Shown here in pieces: positions 15,338-25,427 of a DNA stretch of 25,618 nt. The stretch covers positions 1 through 25,618 of the IMG/VR virus record IMGVR_UViG_3300048924_000110; one strand, 5' to 3'. The stretch comes from a virus. The notes beneath the pieces were generated by a model. The model was not told where the DNA came from and made no database searches. It was given only the letters and a program-made list of their open reading frames with translations. How positions within the stretch are numbered: position 1 is the first letter of the stretch; each line of letters begins with the position of its first letter. The position numbers were made by a program, and so were the translations under genes.

Positions 15338-15403
15338 TCTCGTTTACTCTCTCTTTGTCAAATGGTAGAATTAGGGCAAATCTACTATTCGGGGGAACCA
15401 AAC

Positions 15404-16003
15404 GTGAAAAAATGGTCTTATTTACTTAGCGGAATATTGATTGGTGCAGTTGTTGCTACAGCTGGAAATGCATTTGCGGATCAAGTGAAATCACTGATCG
15501 GGGAAAAGGTAGCAGGTGAATACACCGTTAAGGTAAATGGGAGCTCGTTAACAGAAAATGCAATTGTAGTTGACGGCAAAGCGCATGTTCCTTTGCGTGC
15601 TGTATCTGACTCTCTAGGAGCTGGTATAAAAGTGGATGGAAAGACAATTCAAATTGACACCCAATCCAAGACAGAATCTTCAGTGGAGGAAAAAAACAAT
15701 TCACTAGAAACGCCTAATGGAAATAATAATAATTCGCAGGAAATTATAGATTCTATAAAAAGCTATAGATCGTTTTGGGAAAGATCACTGGATGGTGCCG
15801 AGGAAAGCCAAGTAAAGTTTAACAAAAGAATAGAAGAATTAACGAATCTCCCAGTCAGCAATGATCCGATTACTCAGGAAAATAGAAAAAAATCGTTAGC
15901 TCATGCACGAGAAATGATAGAAGAAAATAACAAAAAAATTGCTGAATACAAAGCAAAGATTGCTGAGATAGACGCCCAGCTTGCAGCTAAATTAAATAAA
16001 TAA
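15404..16003 (+). CDS. secreted stalk-domain protein with coiled-coil tail
   Basis: A 199-residue protein with a GTG start after GGGGGA (15391-15396). Residues 1-25 are a signal peptide (KK start, hydrophobic core, AFA cleavage site). Residues about 38-86 (EYTVKVNGSSLTENAIVVDG, then HVPLRAVSDSLGAGIKVD) are a copper-amine-oxidase-like N-terminal 'stalk' domain, common in secreted Paenibacillus proteins. An Asn-rich linker follows, then a coiled coil from about 150 to the end. It may be an exported cell-wall protein made by the lysogen or a virion-associated cell-wall binder. It is followed by its own terminator. The endolysin carries a related domain. Confidence 0.7.
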   Translation: MKKWSYLLSGILIGAVVATAGNAFADQVKSLIGEKVAGEYTVKVNGSSLTENAIVVDGKAHVPLRAVSDSLGAGIKVDGKTIQIDTQSKTESSVEEKNNSLETPNGNNNNSQEIIDSIKSYRSFWERSLDGAEESQVKFNKRIEELTNLPVSNDPITQENRKKSLAHAREMIEENNKKIAEYKAKIAEIDAQLAAKLNK

Positions 16004-16057: not shown

Positions 16058-17557
16058 ATGGCGGTCACAAAACAATTGAAGATCGGTAACGGTGGTGCCA
16101 ACTATAACACGGCAGAGGCCACGCTCAAGCGTCAAATTGCACAGAACCAATCCAACATAGCTAACAACTCCGCTTATAAGCAGAACGAGACACAGCGCGC
16201 CTTGCAGGTCATACAGCAACGGCAGGATGCTGGTTTTGATACATCGGCACAGCAGAAATACCTGACCACCAACTTGGGATATAAGGCACCTACTACTACG
16301 CAGGCACAGCCAACAGCAGCGCCATTCAAGCCAATTAACACGACCAGTGCCAACACGCAGCAAGGGTCTGAACTCATGGGCCTGATGAAGCAGATAGCTA
16401 CTAAACAGTCTACACCGTTCAGCTATGACGTTAACAGCGATCCAGAATATCAGGCAGCGCTTAAACGTGCTCAAGCGAATATTAAGACTGGTACCAATCA
16501 AAACATGGCGGAAATGAATCGTCGTGGCATCTTGAACAGTACCATTACCACAGACAGAGCGGACGAAATTGCAGCCGATCAAATGGGCCGAGTAGAAACG
16601 GAAGTTGTTCCAGCTTTGGTCAGCCAAGCCTACCAACGTTACCAGAACCAGCAAGCACAGGAACAACAGCAACTGGCTAACATGGGTACACTGGCGCAAA
16701 TGTACCAAAGTGAGGATCAGCGGGCCTTTGGTAATAAGGTCACGGAAGCTGGTGAAACAGGCAACTGGATGCCAGAGGGAGCCCAGGACATCGTTAATAA
16801 CATTCTGTCCCTCAAGCAGCAAGCAGAGGCTAAGGGAGTCACCGCGCAGCAACGGGCACAGTACAGCGCACAGGCTGACGGATTACGAGCGCAGCTCCTT
16901 TCAATGGGGGTTAATCCTAATGCATATGCAGCTAATGTAAACTCTACTACGGCACGTGCAGTCAATCCGGGTATCCGCACTCTGCAAGCTCAACAGCAGG
17001 ATCTAGCGGCACAGGGTCAAGCATTTACGCAGAACCTTCAAACAGCACAGTATAACCAAGGTGTTCGACAGTATGATCAAAACTTTGCTTATCAAGTGGC
17101 GCGGGATGCGATTACAGATAAGCAGTGGCAAGCCGCCTTTGACCGGGATGTTAGCCAGTTCGGTATGAATTATGCTCTACAGAGTTTGCAAGAGCGGAAT
17201 AATACAGCCTACCGTCAGGCTACACTTGCACTTAGCCAAGATGATAACGCAAGACAATGGGCAGATTTGGACTATCGACAGTCAAATCCAAGCGGCGCGT
17301 CTGGTGGTCTGACAGCTAACCAAGTTCTGCAAAGCATGCAAAGCTTATATTCGGTTCCTGTCTATGAAAAAAATGATGACGGGGATAGCGTCAAAGAAGG
17401 AACGAAGATAACCACGGATGCAAGCAAACGACAAGAGATGTTCCAGAATGTTGTTGATGCTGGCCTGAGCGATGCTGAGACACGTCAAATCCTTTCATCA
17501 CTCGGTATGAATAAGAAGGAAATTGATAAATTCAAGAAACTATACTCGGGAAACTGA
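16058..17557 (+). CDS. internal virion (ejection) protein, zero-frame product
   Basis: A 499-residue protein, very rich in Gln, Ala and Asn. Long helical stretches are broken by low-complexity linkers (TTTQAQPTAAPFKPINTTSA at about 78-97). The middle shows repeated helical units (ALKRAQANIKTGTNQNMAEM, AYQRYQNQQAQEQQQLANMG, QNLQTAQYNQGVRQYDQNFA). This is the composition of podoviral internal core proteins that leave with the DNA and line the channel. The ATG follows AAAGGGGTG. The last codons TCG GGA AAC TGA contain a slippery heptamer and a hairpin follows, so a fraction of ribosomes should shift to the -1 frame and add an SLT domain. The ejection role is inferred from composition and position. 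Confidence 0.75.
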   Translation: MAVTKQLKIGNGGANYNTAEATLKRQIAQNQSNIANNSAYKQNETQRALQVIQQRQDAGFDTSAQQKYLTTNLGYKAPTTTQAQPTAAPFKPINTTSANTQQGSELMGLMKQIATKQSTPFSYDVNSDPEYQAALKRAQANIKTGTNQNMAEMNRRGILNSTITTDRADEIAADQMGRVETEVVPALVSQAYQRYQNQQAQEQQQLANMGTLAQMYQSEDQRAFGNKVTEAGETGNWMPEGAQDIVNNILSLKQQAEAKGVTAQQRAQYSAQADGLRAQLLSMGVNPNAYAANVNSTTARAVNPGIRTLQAQQQDLAAQGQAFTQNLQTAQYNQGVRQYDQNFAYQVARDAITDKQWQAAFDRDVSQFGMNYALQSLQERNNTAYRQATLALSQDDNARQWADLDYRQSNPSGASGGLTANQVLQSMQSLYSVPVYEKNDDGDSVKEGTKITTDASKRQEMFQNVVDAGLSDAETRQILSSLGMNKKEIDKFKKLYSGN

Positions 17558-17579
17558 CTAGCCCCGGTGGCTCCGGGGC
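17548..17579 (+). other. programmed -1 ribosomal frameshift site
   Basis: The slippery heptamer G GGA AAC (17548-17554) is in the correct phase (TCG GGA AAC) and is followed at once by the TGA stop of the zero frame. A spacer of 6 bases leads to a 7-bp all-GC hairpin, GCCCCGG-TGGCT-CCGGGGC (17561-17579). Two further A-T pairs could form across one bulged C. Heptamer type, phase, spacer and hairpin all match known -1 frameshift signals. There is no T run, so this is not a terminator. Confidence 0.85.
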
Positions 17580-17937
17580 CTACAAAAACTATTACAAAGC
17601 TACTAAGGATGCTAAGGCTAACCCAAGGAATTATTCTGTTGCATCTAGTGCCATCTCTCAGGCGATTTCCGACGGTGGGTATCCAGCCAACTGGCAGCGA
17701 GCAGTAGAAGAATTAGTAGCGCGAGAGTCTAGTTTTAATTCGAATGCGAAAAATCCAAAGTCCACAGCTAAGGGGTTATTTCAGTTCTTAGACGGTACTC
17801 GTAAAGGGTACGGTCAAGGCATTACAAATTGGAATGATCCCTATCAACAATCAGTTGCAGGATTGAAATACATTAAAGCTAGATACGGAACACCTGAAAA
17901 GGCTCTCGCATTTTGGGATAAAAATAAATGGTATTGA
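17554..17937 (+). CDS. SLT lytic transglycosylase domain, -1 frame extension
   Basis: 127 codons open in the -1 frame from CTG at 17554 to TGA at 17935. The frame is closed upstream by TAA at 17527 and contains no ATG or GTG; the only TTG is near its end. A Pro-Gly-Ser-Gly linker leads to a transglycosylase SLT domain: ELVARESSFNSNAKNPKS with the catalytic Glu in RES, then TAKGLFQFLDGT, then a C-terminal part ending ALAFWDKNKWY. SLT enzymes cleave the MurNAc-GlcNAc bond and in virions open the cell wall during DNA entry. Fusion to the 499-residue protein gives about 626 residues. The domain is seen; expression by frameshift is strongly inferred from the site at 17548-17579. The next gene starts 10 bases after its stop. 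Confidence 0.88.
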   Translation: MTSPGGSGAYKNYYKATKDAKANPRNYSVASSAISQAISDGGYPANWQRAVEELVARESSFNSNAKNPKSTAKGLFQFLDGTRKGYGQGITNWNDPYQQSVAGLKYIKARYGTPEKALAFWDKNKWY

Positions 17938-17947
17938 GGTGGATTAG

Positions 17948-20900
17948 ATGGCAAGCGAATTTGACGCAGTGCGAAATCGAAAAAAACAAGGAGCAGATGC
18001 CAAAGCTAGGGTATTGGCTCGTGCCAGTAATCCCAATGTAGGTGGTGGTAATGCTGAAAGTGAATTCGCGGCTGTGCGAAATCGTACTGCTGATATTTCA
18101 CCTCCTACGTTATTAGACAATGTAAAGAGTGCTCTAACAAGTCCGGGTGTGAAGGACTTTGTTAACAAAGGATTGAACTACGCAGGTCAGGAGATGCAAC
18201 GACAGGCGGCCGAACGTGAGAAAAACCGCCTCAAGTTGCCACCTTCACTTATTATCGGGCCGGGCTTTATTGAGAATTCCACTTTTGCCCAAGCGACTCA
18301 AGGCAATCGGGATGCCATAGGTACGTATAGAGCGGCAACAGGGCAAACAATCAAGCCATTGAGCGCATATGAACAATGGATGGAAGGCATAGATAAAGAT
18401 GTAGAAAGGTTCCCTGCGATTGCACCAGTGAAACCACTAGCACAGGGTATTGCTGGTCTTGTCTTGGACAATAAGCCCGGACAATTTACTACACGTACGT
18501 TTGGACAAATAGGTAGTGCTGTAACAGGCGATAAACCTTACTACGATGTTACAACAGGTAATGCTACAGCGGATAAAGTAGCGGATATAACTGGGGGTAT
18601 TGGTGGTATCGCTGCTTTAGCCATTAACCCTGCTGCTCCTGGTATTCAAGGACAGAACTTAATAACTGGACCACTGGCTGCCGCAGAAGCCGGACTTGCT
18701 ACACGCGCCGGGAATGTACTTACAAATACCATTAGTAGACAAGCCGCTAGAATCCCGGGAGTAAGTGCCGGGACAGCGGAACGTTTTACACGTGGCGCTC
18801 TCAGTGGGGCCGCTGCTGGTGCAGTCGGAAACACAGCAATTGGTATTAACCAGGATCAAACGTCTGGACAGGAGATGCTACACAATGCAGGTTTAGGGGC
18901 AGCTTTTGGAGCAGGCGGCGACTTGCTTATAAGAGGTGTAGGAGCTGGTATTAGCAGAGGAAGAACCAGAGGTGCAACTTTACCAGAAGAGACACTAGCA
19001 TTGCCTCTTGGTCGCGGCGATCAACGCATGGCACAGGCCGGACAGCGTTCTAGCTTAGCGCGTGGAGACGATGCGATTGTAAACCCTACAGACTGGGCTC
19101 CTGAACCGTTAGGGCTTCCAGCTGGTCGTAATTCTACTTTTATTGGTGAGTCTCCATTGCCTGCACAACGTGTGGGCGCTCGTCCTGGTACAAGCCGAGA
19201 ACCTGTACAACGGGTGAGTGAGTCTTCTATTAACCGTCAACAAAACTTTAATATAAACGATCCTGCTGTACCAGAGTTCATGCGCGTAAGGCAAGCGCGT
19301 TTAGATGCTGCTAATGCCAAAGTAGCAAAGGTTGAACAACAACGAATTACACCGGAAGTAGAAGCAGAGGAAATCGTCAGGACCATCCAGCAACCGCGTG
19401 TCAGAGATCGGGTATACAATTACCTTGATGAAGCCGAAAAAGCCGCCAGAGAGCGAATACAGAAGCGTAAGAATAACCTGAACTCTAACCCTCTGCCAGA
19501 GTGGAAAGACTGGTCTATCATTGGTGCTGCTAAGATGGGTAAAGGTACAATAAAATTCGCTGACTGGACCGAAGAAATGGTTAAAGAGGTAGGCGAAAAC
19601 TTCCGTCCGCATGCCGAGAAAACTTATCGCGCAGCCAAAGAGGAACTACGGAAACAGGAACGCCTTGCTACAAAAGAAGGTGAAACTGCTGTAAAGTTCA
19701 ATTCTCAGGATATTGGTGATGCTGATACATTCGCTGCAAAAATTAGCAATAAGGCTTCTAAACGTAGAACAAACTTTTCACAAAAGATAGAGAAGATAAG
19801 ATCGCAATTCGAAGATGATGTTATATCATTAGCTGGTCTAGAAAAGCGCGTAACGGGTCGTGTAGCAAGTGCAGAAGACAGTCTATATAAGAAGGCGAGG
19901 TTGTATAAAGGAGCGCCGGAAAAGGCCCATCAGATCGTTAAACAGCGTCTTGGTCCTGTAATAACAGCGGCAGAAAAAGCAGGGTACACGTCAGATGACC
20001 TTGGCAGATATGCTCTTGCTGTACACGCTAAGGATGTTAATGCCGCCGGGTATAAATCAGGGTTTACAAATAAAGAGATTGAAGCAGTTATAAGTAAGTA
20101 CGAAGGATCTGAAGAAATGGAAACGGCGCGTAAAGCGCTGGTGCAGGTCGGCAAAGACATGATGAAGGAGCTTGTTGATAGTGGTGTAGTCAGTAAGGAA
20201 TTGGCCAGTGTGCTTGATAATCGTTGGGAAAACTATATTCCATTGTTCCGTGCGTTTGACGACACCCCAGAGGCGTTTGCGGGCGGACTGTCGAAGTCCC
20301 TTGCTAATGTCGCTAGTCCGGTCAAGGCATTGAAAGGTTCAAACAAAAAAGTTGTAGATCCGCTTGAAAATATGGTTCGTAACATTTTCCAAACTGTGAA
20401 TGCAGCTGAACGGAATAGGGTTGCTACAGAGATTTCAAAACTTGCTAAAAAAGATGTGGATGGAAACTTTATTCGAAAATTGAAAAAGAATGAACAGGTT
20501 GGACGTAAGAACGTGGTCAACGTCAAAGAGAATGGTGAGAGTGTAAAATATGAGGTGGAGCCAGAAGTATACCGGGCATTAATGAATTTGGACAAAGAAT
20601 CTTCCAGCATGCTTTTGAATGCATTGTCCAAGCCTGCATCACTATTACGGGCTGGCGCCACGCTCACGCCTGAATTTAGTTTGCGGAATCCAATGCGTGA
20701 TATCCTACAAGCTTATGTGGTGAGTAAAAGTGGATTCAATCCCATTACTGATTTTGGCGCAGGGTTGATTCAATCCATTTCAAAGGGGAAACTGTACCAA
20801 GAGTGGATTGAAAACCTTGGAGCGTACGGTAATGTACTGTCTATGGATAGAAACATCCACCGTAAAGCGCTGGAATCGGTACTCAAGGAAAAGCCGAGCA

Positions 20901-22129
20901 AAAAGTTTATCAATATCGTGACAGGCAAAGCATTTATCAATGCGCTTCGCACAATCACGGACATAACAGAATCAGCAACAAAAGTTGGCGAATACCGGGC
21001 AGCTTTACGAAAAGGGGCAACCCCTCAAGAAGCTGCATACCGCGCACGTGATCTTATGGACTTTGCCCGTGCTGGTTCGGGTATACGGCAGGCTAACCGA
21101 GTTGTCGCGTTCTTAAACGCAAATATTCAGGGTAAATCAAAATTGGTTCGGGCCATAAAGGAAAATCCTGTCGGGACTACAGCGAGAATGATAACCGGAG
21201 TAACGATTCCAACGGTCGGATTTTTTATTTCGAATCATTATCTTGCAAATGAAACGCAGCGCCAAACCATAGACGATGCGGCGGAGTGGATGAAAGATAC
21301 ATTTTGGTTATGGGCCGTTCCAGGGACGGATGTAGTCGCCCGAATTCCGAAGCCGTTTGATATTGCTCCTATATTTGCAAATCTACCTGAAAGAGCGTTG
21401 AAGTTTGCTTATGAAAATGATAGAGAAGCTTTTGACGGATTCGCGAAACGGGCATTAAAGGATGCTGCTGTTCCTGCTCAAATAACAGCGTTATGGCCTT
21501 TTATCGAGGGGATGGCGAACTACTCATTTTTCCGTGAAGGCCCAATTATTCCACAACGCGAACAAGGGTTGAAGTATAAAGATCAGTACGATCCAGTTCG
21601 CACAACTGAAACCGCTAAGTTTTTAGCAGGTATATCAAGTGCTGTTACTGGAGACGAGGGCCCGTTAAAAAATTTTTCCTCTCCACGCATAATGGATAAT
21701 ACAATACAAGGGCTTACGGCTGGATTGGGTAATTATGCTACTTCGGCTATAGATTCAATGCTTAAGGGAGTCGGCTTAGTTGATCGTCCTGAAGCACCAG
21801 AAAAACGATTAGAACAATTACCGTTTGCTAAGGCTTTTTTAGTCGACCCTTTGCAAAGCACAAAATCTTCAGAGAAGCTATATGACTTGAAAGATAAGTT
21901 ATCCAGCGATAAGGCTTCTGCCAAACTTAATAAAGAAGATTTTTCGCGTAAACGTGATCTAAAGACGTTGGAGAAAGCGGCGAAAAAACTCAGCGACATA
22001 AACGCTGATATTCGTGAAATCGAAAAAGATAAGACAATGAGCGCGCGTGAAAAGCGTATACGAATCGAACCGCTGTTAAGCGAAAGAAATCAGATTGCTA
22101 GAGATACAATGAAAGGATTTCCTAAATAA
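17948..22129 (+). CDS. large internal virion protein with LPD38-like domain
   Basis: A 1393-residue protein, ATG after GAGGTGG. The N-terminus has a repeated nonamer, SEFDAVRNR (3-11) and SEFAAVRNR (38-46). Residues about 200-330 are Gly/Ala-rich with weakly hydrophobic helices. The centre (about 440-700) is charged and helical. Residues about 900-1060 (SLRNPMRDILQAYVVSK, then FINALRTITDITESATKVGE, then DLMDFARAGSGIRQAN) match the large polyvalent-protein-associated LPD38-type region found in giant phage ejection proteins. A hydrophobic segment lies at about 1078-1095. The C-terminus is coiled coil. It follows the SLT-fusion gene and is likely co-ejected with it. It could be mislabelled a tape measure, but no tail tube genes are present. 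Confidence 0.75.
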   Translation: MASEFDAVRNRKKQGADAKARVLARASNPNVGGGNAESEFAAVRNRTADISPPTLLDNVKSALTSPGVKDFVNKGLNYAGQEMQRQAAEREKNRLKLPPSLIIGPGFIENSTFAQATQGNRDAIGTYRAATGQTIKPLSAYEQWMEGIDKDVERFPAIAPVKPLAQGIAGLVLDNKPGQFTTRTFGQIGSAVTGDKPYYDVTTGNATADKVADITGGIGGIAALAINPAAPGIQGQNLITGPLAAAEAGLATRAGNVLTNTISRQAARIPGVSAGTAERFTRGALSGAAAGAVGNTAIGINQDQTSGQEMLHNAGLGAAFGAGGDLLIRGVGAGISRGRTRGATLPEETLALPLGRGDQRMAQAGQRSSLARGDDAIVNPTDWAPEPLGLPAGRNSTFIGESPLPAQRVGARPGTSREPVQRVSESSINRQQNFNINDPAVPEFMRVRQARLDAANAKVAKVEQQRITPEVEAEEIVRTIQQPRVRDRVYNYLDEAEKAARERIQKRKNNLNSNPLPEWKDWSIIGAAKMGKGTIKFADWTEEMVKEVGENFRPHAEKTYRAAKEELRKQERLATKEGETAVKFNSQDIGDADTFAAKISNKASKRRTNFSQKIEKIRSQFEDDVISLAGLEKRVTGRVASAEDSLYKKARLYKGAPEKAHQIVKQRLGPVITAAEKAGYTSDDLGRYALAVHAKDVNAAGYKSGFTNKEIEAVISKYEGSEEMETARKALVQVGKDMMKELVDSGVVSKELASVLDNRWENYIPLFRAFDDTPEAFAGGLSKSLANVASPVKALKGSNKKVVDPLENMVRNIFQTVNAAERNRVATEISKLAKKDVDGNFIRKLKKNEQVGRKNVVNVKENGESVKYEVEPEVYRALMNLDKESSSMLLNALSKPASLLRAGATLTPEFSLRNPMRDILQAYVVSKSGFNPITDFGAGLIQSISKGKLYQEWIENLGAYGNVLSMDRNIHRKALESVLKEKPSKKFINIVTGKAFINALRTITDITESATKVGEYRAALRKGATPQEAAYRARDLMDFARAGSGIRQANRVVAFLNANIQGKSKLVRAIKENPVGTTARMITGVTIPTVGFFISNHYLANETQRQTIDDAAEWMKDTFWLWAVPGTDVVARIPKPFDIAPIFANLPERALKFAYENDREAFDGFAKRALKDAAVPAQITALWPFIEGMANYSFFREGPIIPQREQGLKYKDQYDPVRTTETAKFLAGISSAVTGDEGPLKNFSSPRIMDNTIQGLTAGLGNYATSAIDSMLKGVGLVDRPEAPEKRLEQLPFAKAFLVDPLQSTKSSEKLYDLKDKLSSDKASAKLNKEDFSRKRDLKTLEKAAKKLSDINADIREIEKDKTMSAREKRIRIEPLLSERNQIARDTMKGFPK

Positions 22130-22227: not shown

Positions 22228-22569
22228 ATGGAATATATTGAACTGGATGATGATAGCCGTGAATGTGCGGTTTCTCAAGAGTTTTTGAACATGGTTTTAT
22301 GGTTACTAGGCCCGACAGCACGAGACAAGTTTTTATACCCGGCGGTGGACAGCAATGTACGACTTCATAATTTCAGCGGCAGAACAGATCATCAAGAATG
22401 GGCTTTCACTGTCGACGGCAGCCGGAATAATATTTTTGATCCTAAAGCAAAAGAAAGTGAAAAGACTGCTTCGGAAGTGGCTTCCTTGGCTGCTGACGGA
22501 GGAACAAGATATACGAATGATGCGGATGGAGTCCAAGATAGATTTAATCATGCAGGAGGCCGGGATTGA
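22228..22569 (+). CDS. hypothetical protein overlapping the holin-like gene
   Basis: A reading frame of 113 residues with a good start: GGGGGAAG then ATG. The first about 42 residues (MEYIELDDDSRECAVSQEFL, then MVLWLLGPTARDKF) lie before the next gene and look like real protein. The remainder overlaps the holin-like frame by 215 bases and has a composition typical of an out-of-frame shadow. Either the two genes overlap widely or a stop has been lost. No family is recognised; the position suggests a lysis-cassette accessory gene. Confidence 0.45.
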   Translation: MEYIELDDDSRECAVSQEFLNMVLWLLGPTARDKFLYPAVDSNVRLHNFSGRTDHQEWAFTVDGSRNNIFDPKAKESEKTASEVASLAADGGTRYTNDADGVQDRFNHAGGRD

Positions 22570-23587
22570 ATGGGATGCGAACACGCCAAACGAAGATTTG
22601 CCAAACTTTCTGAGGGGGCCAAGACGGCCCTTTTTATTATTCTGGGCGACGTCTACCTTTGCCCAAGATGCCGACAAATCCAACAACTGGAGGGACAACG
22701 AGATGGCGAAAAAGATAATCATAATTGATGCAGGCCATGGAGCTAAGGATCCGGGCGCACTCGGGCCAGCTGGCAAGAAGGAAAAAGATTTTAACCTGAC
22801 TATGGCTATTAAGGTGGAAACCTTTTTAAAGGACAATCCGGAACTAAAGGTGATTCTTACACGCCGTACAGACGTGTTTCTGGAACTTAAAGAGCGTGTA
22901 TCCATTGCCAATAAAGCTGGTGCAGATGCCTTTGTATCTATTCATGCGAATAGCAGCAGCAATCCAGATGCAACAGGCACAGAAACGTATTATATGCGTC
23001 CTACCAGCAAGAACCTTGCCAACACCATACACAAGCATATGGTAGCAGCTACAGGGCTTAGAGACCGCGGCGTGGCTTATGGTAACTTCCAAGTTATCCG
23101 CAGCACGACAATGGATGCAGTCTTGGTTGAAGTCGGATTTATCAGCAACGCGGTAGAAGAGGCTACGCTCTATGACAACGACTTTCAAAACAATGTTGCA
23201 CTGGCCATTGCTAAAGGCTTGTGTGCGCACGTAGGAGTGCCGTTTACGGGACCTGCTACAAAGCCTACACCAACGCCAGTTACACCTAAACCAGCCGATA
23301 AACCTACATCATACCCAGAAATAGAGGTGATTGTAGGCAAGCAAGATTTTGTTGGCTATAGCATTAACAATGTAACTTTTGTACCATCCCGGCCTATCGG
23401 TGAAATGTTTGGCGGTAAGATTGGATATACAGGCGGCAAGGTTACTATCAACGGTCAGGCGGTAGAAACGGTAAACATCAACGGCATTGGTCATGTACCA
23501 GCTCGTGCGTTAACCACAGCACTTGGAGCGCGTATCTTTTGGGACAAGAGTAATCCTAAACGGGTAGATATTTTCCCTAAACTATAA
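22355..23587 (+). CDS. holin-like segment fused in frame to endolysin
   Basis: A continuous 410-codon frame. Residues 1-31 contain a membrane segment (GLSLSTAAGIIFLIL at about 16-30). Next is a very basic stretch (KQKKVKRLLRKWLPWLL) and an amphipathic part to about 85; together these look like a small holin-like membrane protein. The frame then reads through a terminator hairpin (22613-22640), whose codons give RGPRRPFLLFW, and reaches the amidase at Met117. The internal ATG has its own ribosome binding site, so two products are possible: a membrane-tethered 410-residue form and a free 294-residue form. The fusion could also be a recent loss of the holin stop. The start at 22355 has a moderate GGCGGTGG site. 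Confidence 0.5.
   Translation: MYDFIISAAEQIIKNGLSLSTAAGIIFLILKQKKVKRLLRKWLPWLLTEEQDIRMMRMESKIDLIMQEAGIEWDANTPNEDLPNFLRGPRRPFLLFWATSTFAQDADKSNNWRDNEMAKKIIIIDAGHGAKDPGALGPAGKKEKDFNLTMAIKVETFLKDNPELKVILTRRTDVFLELKERVSIANKAGADAFVSIHANSSSNPDATGTETYYMRPTSKNLANTIHKHMVAATGLRDRGVAYGNFQVIRSTTMDAVLVEVGFISNAVEEATLYDNDFQNNVALAIAKGLCAHVGVPFTGPATKPTPTPVTPKPADKPTSYPEIEVIVGKQDFVGYSINNVTFVPSRPIGEMFGGKIGYTGGKVTINGQAVETVNINGIGHVPARALTTALGARIFWDKSNPKRVDIFPKL
22613..22640 (+). terminator. terminator hairpin within an open frame
   Basis: AGGGGGCC (22613-22620), loop AAGAC, GGCCCTTT (22626-22633), then T-rich sequence to 22640. It lies between the holin-like segment and the amidase ribosome binding site, inside the continuous frame. 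Confidence 0.75.
22703..23587 (+). CDS. endolysin, N-acetylmuramoyl-L-alanine amidase (Amidase_3)
   Basis: A 294-residue endolysin. It cuts the amide bond between MurNAc and L-Ala in peptidoglycan to release progeny. Amidase_3 motifs are in order: IIDAGHGAKDPGA with Zn ligand H12, KEKDFNL with E27, SIHANSSS with H81, and VEVGFISN with catalytic E143. A Pro/Thr/Lys-rich linker (about 178-205) leads to a C-terminal domain with HVPARALTTALGARIFWD, resembling a copper-amine-oxidase-like stalk domain and probably used for wall binding. The ATG follows GGAGGG (22690-22695) at 7-base spacing. The frame also continues upstream without a stop. Confidence 0.92.
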   Translation: MAKKIIIIDAGHGAKDPGALGPAGKKEKDFNLTMAIKVETFLKDNPELKVILTRRTDVFLELKERVSIANKAGADAFVSIHANSSSNPDATGTETYYMRPTSKNLANTIHKHMVAATGLRDRGVAYGNFQVIRSTTMDAVLVEVGFISNAVEEATLYDNDFQNNVALAIAKGLCAHVGVPFTGPATKPTPTPVTPKPADKPTSYPEIEVIVGKQDFVGYSINNVTFVPSRPIGEMFGGKIGYTGGKVTINGQAVETVNINGIGHVPARALTTALGARIFWDKSNPKRVDIFPKL

Positions 23588-24011: not shown

Positions 24012-24185
24012 ATGAATAGTGTTGTTGCTGAATATATGTATTTTGATGGGCCGCGTGAGAAAAGGAAATCTATCGGTTTCCAAACGGAACTGGATGATAA
24101 AGCTGAGATTGAAGAGCAAGCAAAAAAAGAAGCTGCCGCTATTGTAGGGCAACCCGTTAAGATTATAAGAATCAAAATTGTATAA
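24012..24185 (+). CDS. small hypothetical protein, 57 aa
   Basis: A 57-residue protein (MNSVVAEYMYFDGPREKRKS..., ending VGQPVKIIRIKIV) with a helical centre rich in Glu, Lys and Ala. The start follows GAGGAGGTGAGAGG. It is the last phage gene, between the holin terminator and the end-of-prophage terminator. No family is recognised; genes in this position are sometimes lysogenic-conversion genes, but nothing here shows that. Confidence 0.55.
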   Translation: MNSVVAEYMYFDGPREKRKSIGFQTELDDKAEIEEQAKKEAAAIVGQPVKIIRIKIV

Positions 24186-24199
24186 GAGGTACATACATG

Positions 24200-24227
24200 A
24201 CGCTTGGACAAATGTTCAGGCGTTTTT
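24200..24227 (+). terminator. strong terminator at the prophage end
   Basis: ACGCTTGGAC-AAAT-GTTCAGGCGT, ten pairs with two G-T, followed by TTTT. It lies between the last phage gene and the truncated cpaF, so it should insulate the host genes from phage late transcription. Confidence 0.8.
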
Positions 24228-24290
24228 AGTTTATCCACAGATAAATGAATACCATTTTGTATTAGATGGATCGCTGTCAACTGGCCACGC
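24228..24290. other. candidate attR region (prophage/host junction)
   Basis: Homology to CpaF/TadA begins abruptly at about 24265 with DGSLSTGHAN. Directly upstream is AT-rich sequence (24228-24264) with no CpaF-like coding. The crossover core should lie at or just before the DGSLSTGH codons. The exact core cannot be set without the left end of the prophage. Confidence 0.5.
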
Positions 24291-24639
24291 AAATAATATC
24301 CGCGATATGGTCAGCCGGCTGGAAACGATGGTGCTGGGAGGGGCAGAGCTTCCGCTTGGAGTAGTACGACAGCAGATCAGCTCGGCTATTGATATATTTG
24401 TTCATCTGTCACGGATGCGCGACAAATCCAGACGAGTGCTGGAAATTAGCGAAGTGATTGGTTTTGAAAAGGGTGAGGTGACGCTTAACCCCCTTTATCG
24501 GTTTCAGGAGCGAGGAGAAAGCAAGGGGCGAATCGTAGGAGGTCTGGAACGTTGTGGCGAGGGTCTGCAACATACTTTGAAGCTGCAAATGGCCGGGATC
24601 AATCCGGAAAACTGGCACAGGGGAGGCGTATCAGCGTGA
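24265..24639 (+). pseudogene. cpaF: 3' fragment of cpaF/tadA pilus ATPase gene
   Basis: 124 C-terminal codons of a CpaF/TadA-type secretion ATPase. DGSLSTGHAN is the conserved C-terminal motif that follows the Walker B region in this family. SRLETMVLGGAELPLGVVRQ, AIDIFVHLSRMRDKSRRVLE and the end LERCGEGLQHTLKLQMAG match the family's C-terminal layout. The whole N-terminal domain and Walker A/B are missing, replaced by phage sequence. The frame runs back to a TTG at 24178 only by chance. In the uninterrupted host this gene would power Tad (Flp) pilus assembly. It overlaps tadB by 4 bases as in an intact operon, so the fragment is an insertion product, not decay. Confidence 0.8.
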
Positions 24640-25427
24640 AGTCAGGAAAAACGGCGGCCAAGCAAGTATCACGTGAGGCCCCTTCTCTGCCAGATTATAC
24701 GGTGTATACATTATCGACAGTACAAAAAAGTCTGTGCATATTCTTTAGTGGCGTGTTGTTCGCGATGATCGGTTATCTATTTTATCACCAATGGATATTA
24801 TCGTTGCTGTGCGCTGCCGGGGCTGGGGTGATGCCTCGTTATTTTAGGCAATTTTTGCTGCAAAGACGCAGGTCTGCCCTAAGCATCCAATTCAAACAGG
24901 CTTTATATTCGCTCTCGTCTTCTCTTTCAGCGGGAAGGTCGGTGGAGAATGGTTTTCGTGAGGCTGTAGAGGATTTGAGATTGCTTAGTCCAGATGGAGA
25001 TCACGACCTGATTTTTGAATTTAACATTATTACCGCCTGTCTCGAAATCGGACAGCCTGTAGAAACCGCTTTGCAGGATTTGGCCCGTCGGGCGCAGATG
25101 GAAGATATTACGAATTTTGCGGACGTATTTGCGGCTTGCAAACGAACCGGAGGTGATCTGGTGGAAGTCGTAAGACGAGCTTCAAGTGTCATTGGTGAGA
25201 AGCTGGAAATTCAGCAGGAGATCGGTGTAATGATTGCGCAGAAACGTTTTGAATCGAGGGTTATGTTTGCGGCGCCTTTTTTGTTTGTATTGTTTATGAC
25301 CATGACAGCGGGTGATTACATGATGCCCTTATACAGCGGTACAGGTATGATTTTATCAACCTTTTGTTTATTGGTGCTTGGTGGGTGTCTCGTGTGGATC
25401 AACCACATTATGAAGATTGAAGTGTAA
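24636..25427 (+). CDS. tadB: TadB-like pilus assembly inner-membrane protein
   Basis: A 263-residue protein with a GTG start overlapping the cpaF stop (GTGA), after GGGGAGG. Two membrane helices lie near the N-terminus (about residues 28-65) and two at the C-terminus (about 213-262). Between them is a GspF/T2SSF domain: IQFKQALYSLSSSLSAGRSV, then FNIITACLEIGQPVETALQD, then FADVFAACKRTGGDLVEVVR. TadB pairs with TadC to form the platform on which the CpaF ATPase acts. With cpaF broken upstream, and a terminator before it, expression in the lysogen is doubtful. Confidence 0.85.
   Translation: MKSGKTAAKQVSREAPSLPDYTVYTLSTVQKSLCIFFSGVLFAMIGYLFYHQWILSLLCAAGAGVMPRYFRQFLLQRRRSALSIQFKQALYSLSSSLSAGRSVENGFREAVEDLRLLSPDGDHDLIFEFNIITACLEIGQPVETALQDLARRAQMEDITNFADVFAACKRTGGDLVEVVRRASSVIGEKLEIQQEIGVMIAQKRFESRVMFAAPFLFVLFMTMTAGDYMMPLYSGTGMILSTFCLLVLGGCLVWINHIMKIEV

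Follow-up and report, generated by a model that had tools for sequence, protein, structure and literature searches.

A single message in a short-tailed phage, which we attribute to Paenibacillus, very probably gives rise to two virion proteins through a -1 ribosomal frameshift that appends a peptidoglycan hydrolase to the product of a structural gene. The evidence comes purely from sequence comparison, without expression data. The anatomy of the junction, the conserved signal and its covariation, the missing start codons, the selection acting on the -1 open reading frame (ORF) and the swapping of the downstream module are demonstrated; the shift itself, its rate, the packaging of the products in the virion and their role in DNA ejection are inferred.

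Genomic setting and anatomy of the junction

The stretch of DNA analysed here (the window) is a 25.6-kb virus record whose profile matches indicate gene content of the podovirus prophage type, including a portal (phrog_156), a major head protein (phrog_1357) and a pectate-lyase-like tailspike. The 0-frame gene of interest (16058..17557, + strand) encodes a 499-aa protein predicted to be mostly helical, and lies directly before a giant gene of 1393 aa bearing an LPD38 domain (17948..22129, + strand), a candidate large ejection protein that is gp16-like by position only. Downstream is an amidase gene (22355-23587) carrying PF07833, and the same prophage encodes a 213-aa protein (15362-16003) that resembles, by eye, a stalk protein of the copper-amine-oxidase N-terminal type. 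Genes at 24178-25427 resemble, again by eye, those of TadB-type secretion proteins and suggest host chromosome, with the right prophage boundary near 24.2 kb. An Rfam scan of the window matched no family.

The 499-aa product is likely an ejection or internal virion protein, an assignment that rests on gene position and helical prediction in the absence of virion data. The pairing of a long helical protein with one of more than 1000 aa in a podovirus structural operon fits the T7 gp15/gp16 type and is suggestive only. Profile searches of the PDB returned no match for the 499-aa protein and no meaningful match for its 1393-aa neighbour, and AlphaFold modelled the 0-frame protein too poorly (pLDDT 61.7, pTM 0.23) for a fold search. 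The claim of the original prediction that this gene encodes an ejection protein thus remains only an inference, as homology to solved ejection proteins was not found.

The 0-frame gene ends with the slippery heptamer GGGAAAC (17548..17554, + strand), read in phase as TCG GGA AAC and placed directly before the TGA stop (17555..17557), which itself forms the first half of a 6-nt spacer (17555-17560). Beyond the spacer, 6 nt past the heptamer, is the proposed shift stimulator, a stem-loop of sequence GCCCCGG-TGGCT-CCGGGGC (17561..17579, + strand), in which arms at 17561-17567 and 17573-17579 form 7 bp around a loop of 5 nt with an MFE of -15.9 kcal/mol. Taken alone, this stem is only mildly unusual relative to shuffled sequences (z = -1.4). 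The -1 frame, closed upstream by a TAA at 17527, extends over 17554..17937 on the + strand (127 codons plus TGA) and contains neither an ATG nor a GTG start; its sole TTG, at 17863, falls past the catalytic motif. A chance origin of this arrangement is excluded by comparison with relatives and not from the window alone.

The extension contains an SLT lytic transglycosylase domain (17689..17898, + strand) that matches PF01464 with E = 2e-9 and 37.5 bits, against a curated cutoff of 21.3. The catalytic Glu of its RES motif (codon 17725..17727, + strand) is invariant in the module family, unchanged in 19 relatives. Both score and catalytic residue place the -1 product in the PF01464 SLT family, from which enzyme activity is inferred. 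Readthrough of the stop codon was considered and rejected, as the 0 frame past the TGA does not encode SLT. All that had been stated at the outset about the sequence itself, namely the heptamer, spacer, stem, open -1 frame, SLT domain and lack of a start, was found to hold.

Conservation and selection among relatives

Relatives were gathered from IMG/VR scans, from sets of one genome per species and from profile searches of whole genomes, giving 116 non-redundant 0-frame homologues from prophages and phages of Paenibacillaceae and Bacillus. A homologue is present in 55 of 400 genomes drawn from the Paenibacillaceae, the family of P. macerans, and the named hosts of loci with an SLT module are Paenibacillus, Cohnella, Gorillibacterium, Bacillus, Lederbergia and Peribacillus. 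The 0-frame proteins as a whole were too diverse in alignment for back-translated scanning, which was replaced by an alignment of SLT domains and the whole-genome profile searches.

A -1 module is found at 89 loci; in 79 of these, a slip site abuts the stop or lies one codon further upstream. Directly before the stop are GGGAAAC (39 loci), GGGAAAG (16), GGGGGAG (9), AAAAAAC (3), CCCAAAC (3) and GGGAAAA (2), with the site one codon upstream in the remaining 7; GGGGGGG and GGTTTTT, the latter in L032 and L133, also occur within this set. The X_XXY_YYZ pattern is perfect at 66 of the 79 and near-perfect at 13, and these imperfect sites, GGGGGAG at 10 loci and G(G)TTTTT at 3, count against the frameshift reading. 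The other 10 loci are of a looser Bacillus type, 7 of them with GGGTTTT or AAATTTT located two to three codons upstream of the stop; the site is less clear in the other three (L156, L225 and L053). At the junction of L053 (6971-7000), a run of 12 G accompanies the heptamer GGGTTTT, and this run could reflect transcriptional slippage, phase variation or a sequencing error.

The stem is conserved as pairing. When a 7-nt arm beginning exactly 6 nt after the slip site was compared with its own downstream partner at a threshold of at least 6.5 of 7 pairs, 76% of the 79 loci passed, as against 1.1% with arms swapped between loci and 0-8% with the arm slid by 3-9 nt. The stems comprise 19 distinct sequences, in which most of the seven pairs vary on both arms, and the mean folding z across all 89 loci is -2.6. 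Of the 7 loci whose slip site is displaced upstream by one codon, 6 show the stem displaced by the same amount toward the stop, and the position of the stem is therefore tied to the slip site. It counts against the reading that the stem at the tested place is weak or missing in 14 of the 79 loci. No slip site was found near the stop in 16 Paenibacillus-type homologues without a module. Three module-less loci (L277, L293 and L305) have a following large gene whose reading frame, the -1 frame, stays open through the stop codon, which may point to another type of overlap or fusion.

The -1 ORF is genuinely protein-coding and under purifying selection: dN/dS is 0.02-0.15 in six pairs (a seventh being saturated), and differences between these ORFs are concentrated at third positions of the -1 frame. 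Most lack a usable start, and such starts as occur are not conserved, although in L260 and L300 the stop is overlapped by an ATG. An in-phase heptamer, a covarying structure at short spacing and a selected, startless -1 ORF together meet the criteria for bacterial -1 programmed ribosomal frameshifting, with the shift itself still inferred. Conservation among homologues had been proposed as a check of the idea that frameshifting expresses the -1 ORF; nearly all module-bearing relatives retain the slip site, spacer and covarying stem, and this comparison strongly supports the idea.

Exchange of the attached enzyme and variant junctions

The enzyme downstream of the joint is not fixed. Among 87 -1 ORFs, Pfam identifies SLT in 55, glucosaminidase (PF01832) in 25 and a VgrG3-like C-terminal domain (PF21277) in 8, along with the rarer NlpC/P60 (4), M23 (2) and M15 (1), these counts overlapping where a protein matches more than one family. 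At least six kinds of module are distinguished (SLT, glucosaminidase, VgrG3-type muramidase, M15, NlpC/P60+SLT and M23+SLT), all of which, judged by the members already known, we take to be families of peptidoglycan hydrolases. In a quickly built tree of 96 0-frame proteins, weak at many deep branches, the module type changes at least 34 times, and close 0-frame proteins bear different enzymes in L016/L290, L002/L003, L007/L012 and L022/L212. The 0-frame proteins of L016 and L290 are nearly identical, the former joined to SLT and the latter to the VgrG3-type domain, and the stem differs along with the enzyme, which we read as placing the exchange point at about the heptamer. Swapping of the module is thus demonstrated, and the slip site, if it acts in frameshifting as inferred, is a stable joint at which phages exchange the downstream enzyme cassette while keeping the signal. 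The VgrG3-like C-terminal domain, that of a type VI spike muramidase, occurs as such a module in L255, L259, L264, L290, L296 and L252.

Eight loci encode the 0-frame homologue and a hydrolase in one ORF (L141, L143, L035, L054, L287, L248, L303 and L247). Frames joined by a simple indel without a heptamer had been named as an outcome that would refute the frameshift; such in-frame fusions do occur, yet six of the eight (L141, L143, L035, L054, L287 and L247) keep an in-phase GGGAAAC, GGGTTTT or AAATTTT at the junction, where a -1 slip would meet a stop 0-2 codons later. No junction heptamer was found in L248 or L303. The stem is also retained in L141 and L143 with a spacer of 7 nt instead of 6, a trace of the 1-nt difference. 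As caveats, L035, L054 and L287 are related to each other, and the stop following the heptamer in L141 and L143 could be a leftover of the TAG conserved in the +1 frame. Two isoforms may be maintained even with the frames reversed, in the manner of dnaX, a suggestion inferred from sequence alone.

In three further loci (L224, L226 and L232), the 0-frame gene ends in CCC TAA or CCC TAG and the hydrolase lies in the +1 frame. These may represent +1 programmed frameshifting at the same junction; since the +1 frame of L226 and L232 contains upstream ATG codons, the class is retained merely as a candidate. A bolder reading, toward which we lean without great confidence, is that selection maintains the output of two isoforms, with and without a wall hydrolase, and not a particular enzyme or direction of recoding. 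This reading would cover at once the -1 extension through many heptamers, the probable +1 shift at CCC-stop junctions in a few phages, the fusions with a truncating slip, and the exchange of cassettes.

Proposed mechanism and comparison with known systems

In the mechanism proposed, most ribosomes would terminate at the TGA and release the plain 499-aa protein, while a smaller share, made to pause by the stem lying 6 nt ahead with GGA in the P site and AAC in the A site, would slip back one base and re-pair on GGG and AAA. The shifted ribosomes would continue for 127 codons to give a protein of about 626 aa with a C-terminal lytic transglycosylase. Both forms would enter the virion, and the mixed complexes would bear a limited number of wall-cutting domains that may locally open the thick Gram-positive wall during ejection of the DNA. 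That hydrolase-bearing copies are a minority in virions, as first suggested, remains an inference.

Several other explanations of the junction were weighed. The hydrolase could be made as a separate protein if translation restarted on or close to the stop, using a rare start codon (CTG at 17554, ATT or ATA), and indeed CTG is the first -1 codon in the window, as in GGGAAAC-TGA loci generally, and restart is possible at the stop-overlapping ATG of L260 and L300. This is nonetheless very unlikely, for the first -1 codon is GTA, CTA or another non-start in GGGAAAG-TAG, GGGGGAG-TAA and GGGAAAC-TAA loci, restart gives no reason for a kept heptamer, +6 spacing and stem, and the in-frame fusions show that both parts belong in one chain. 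Those same fusions (L141, L143, L035, L054, L287, L247 and L248) are what might favour a pseudogene or sequencing error derived from an ancestral in-frame fusion, an explanation practically ruled out by the recurrence of the same break and signal in dozens of genomes and metagenome contigs sequenced independently and by purifying selection on the -1 ORF; all loci would need to be errors.

Slippage of RNA polymerase instead of the ribosome finds some support in the homopolymer runs of L203 (G7), L053 (G12) and L029 (T6), but the runs within GGGAAAC and CCCAAAC are too short and a covarying stem at +6 nt suits a ribosomal mechanism, making this alternative improbable in the extreme. A GC-rich hairpin following a stop codon could also be a transcription terminator or attenuator, with the -1 ORF expressed by other means. 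This can be set aside with near certainty, as the window hairpin lacks a T tail and was not called by terminator prediction, the hairpin lies within conserved -1 coding sequence, and its position tracks the slip site and not the stop.

Should programmed frameshifting be confirmed, the dosage of wall-cutting enzymes in the virion, with some but not all copies carrying the hydrolase, would become a testable design rule, and the recoding signal would act as a stable joint for enzyme cassette exchange. The loci also offer an extensive natural collection of covarying slip sites and stems from Gram-positive bacteria, and would expose a hidden protein that annotation has split or truncated in cultured phages.

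The nearest cultured phages are those of Pagevirus, phages of Bacillus megaterium that include Page, Pony, Palmer and Pascal, with a major head protein 72.5% identical to that of the window. Searches of cultured phages with the 499-aa gene (tblastn/blastn) gave no matches, and the link to Pagevirus was made with the head protein and the gene that follows the 499-aa one. Its gp18-gp19 gene order is that of the window. In Page, Palmer and Pascal, gp18 ends TCG GGT TTT CTG GGG TAG, with the heptamer GGGTTTT, and the -1 frame beyond is open for about 302-315 codons encoding NlpC/P60 + SLT. Pagevirus differs in that the two parts are deposited as two genes and that a strong stem at +6 nt is absent. 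For this region (18857-19777 in NC_022764, our L217; likewise L218 and L219), the records list a separate "lytic tail fiber protein" whose starts are inconsistent, falling inside or after the NlpC/P60 domain; the start deposited for Page, TTG at 19040, lies past the catalytic Cys of that domain. This protein is likely the -1 extension of gp18, and re-annotation appears warranted. Frameshifting is not mentioned in the announcements of these phages (PMC3990757, PMC4424291, PMC4319499), for which the Page text was read and the word searched for in those of Palmer and Pascal.

Other known systems share parts of this design. The tail assembly chaperones gpG/gpGT of lambda also arise by a -1 shift that gives a fixed ratio of short to long product, at a related heptamer; the lambda slip heptamer is GGGAAAG. 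The lambda case concerns another gene at another position, the podovirus type seen here is without a tape measure, and mature lambda virions contain neither product (PMC5009743). Identification of the 0-frame gene itself as a tail assembly chaperone was rejected, since its next gene encodes the LPD38 giant protein and not a tape measure and the portal and head genes are podovirus-like. With dnaX tau/gamma, the in-frame relatives described here share a full-length product by default and a slip that leads to a stop within 0-2 codons; dnaX is another gene, and only sequence stands behind the two-isoform output proposed here. T7 gp16 is an ejection protein with a lytic transglycosylase (PMC8954989) and offers the likeness of such an enzyme on an ejection protein, with a large protein encoded next door, but its domain is N-terminal and present in every copy, whereas the SLT domain here would be added by frameshifting to the product of the gene before. 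No homology to T7 gp16 was detected at the sequence level.

The closest parallels are the frameshifted minor capsid and tail proteins with C-terminal extensions of T7/T3 gene 10, Lactobacillus A2 and Listeria PSA/A118/A500 (PMC5009743), in which, as proposed here, a -1 or +1 shift adds a C-terminal domain to a minor fraction of the copies of a structural protein. The extension domains of those phages move between phages and are sometimes fused in frame, with mixed use of -1, +1 and in-frame arrangements (PMC5009743); the GGTTTTT sites described here resemble the G_GU site of T7 gene 10, and the CCC-stop loci the CCC_UGA site of Listeria phages such as PSA (PMC5009743). The earlier remark that no such case was known for ejection-protein transglycosylases has stood, in that no previous report of peptidoglycan hydrolases attached by frameshift to an internal virion protein was found in the open-licence literature searched. 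C-terminal extensions that phage structural proteins acquire by frameshifting, movable Ig-like domains among them, are already known, where a non-enzymatic and often Ig-like domain is placed on a capsid or tail-tube protein; what sets the present case apart is an exchangeable peptidoglycan hydrolase on a putative internal virion protein.
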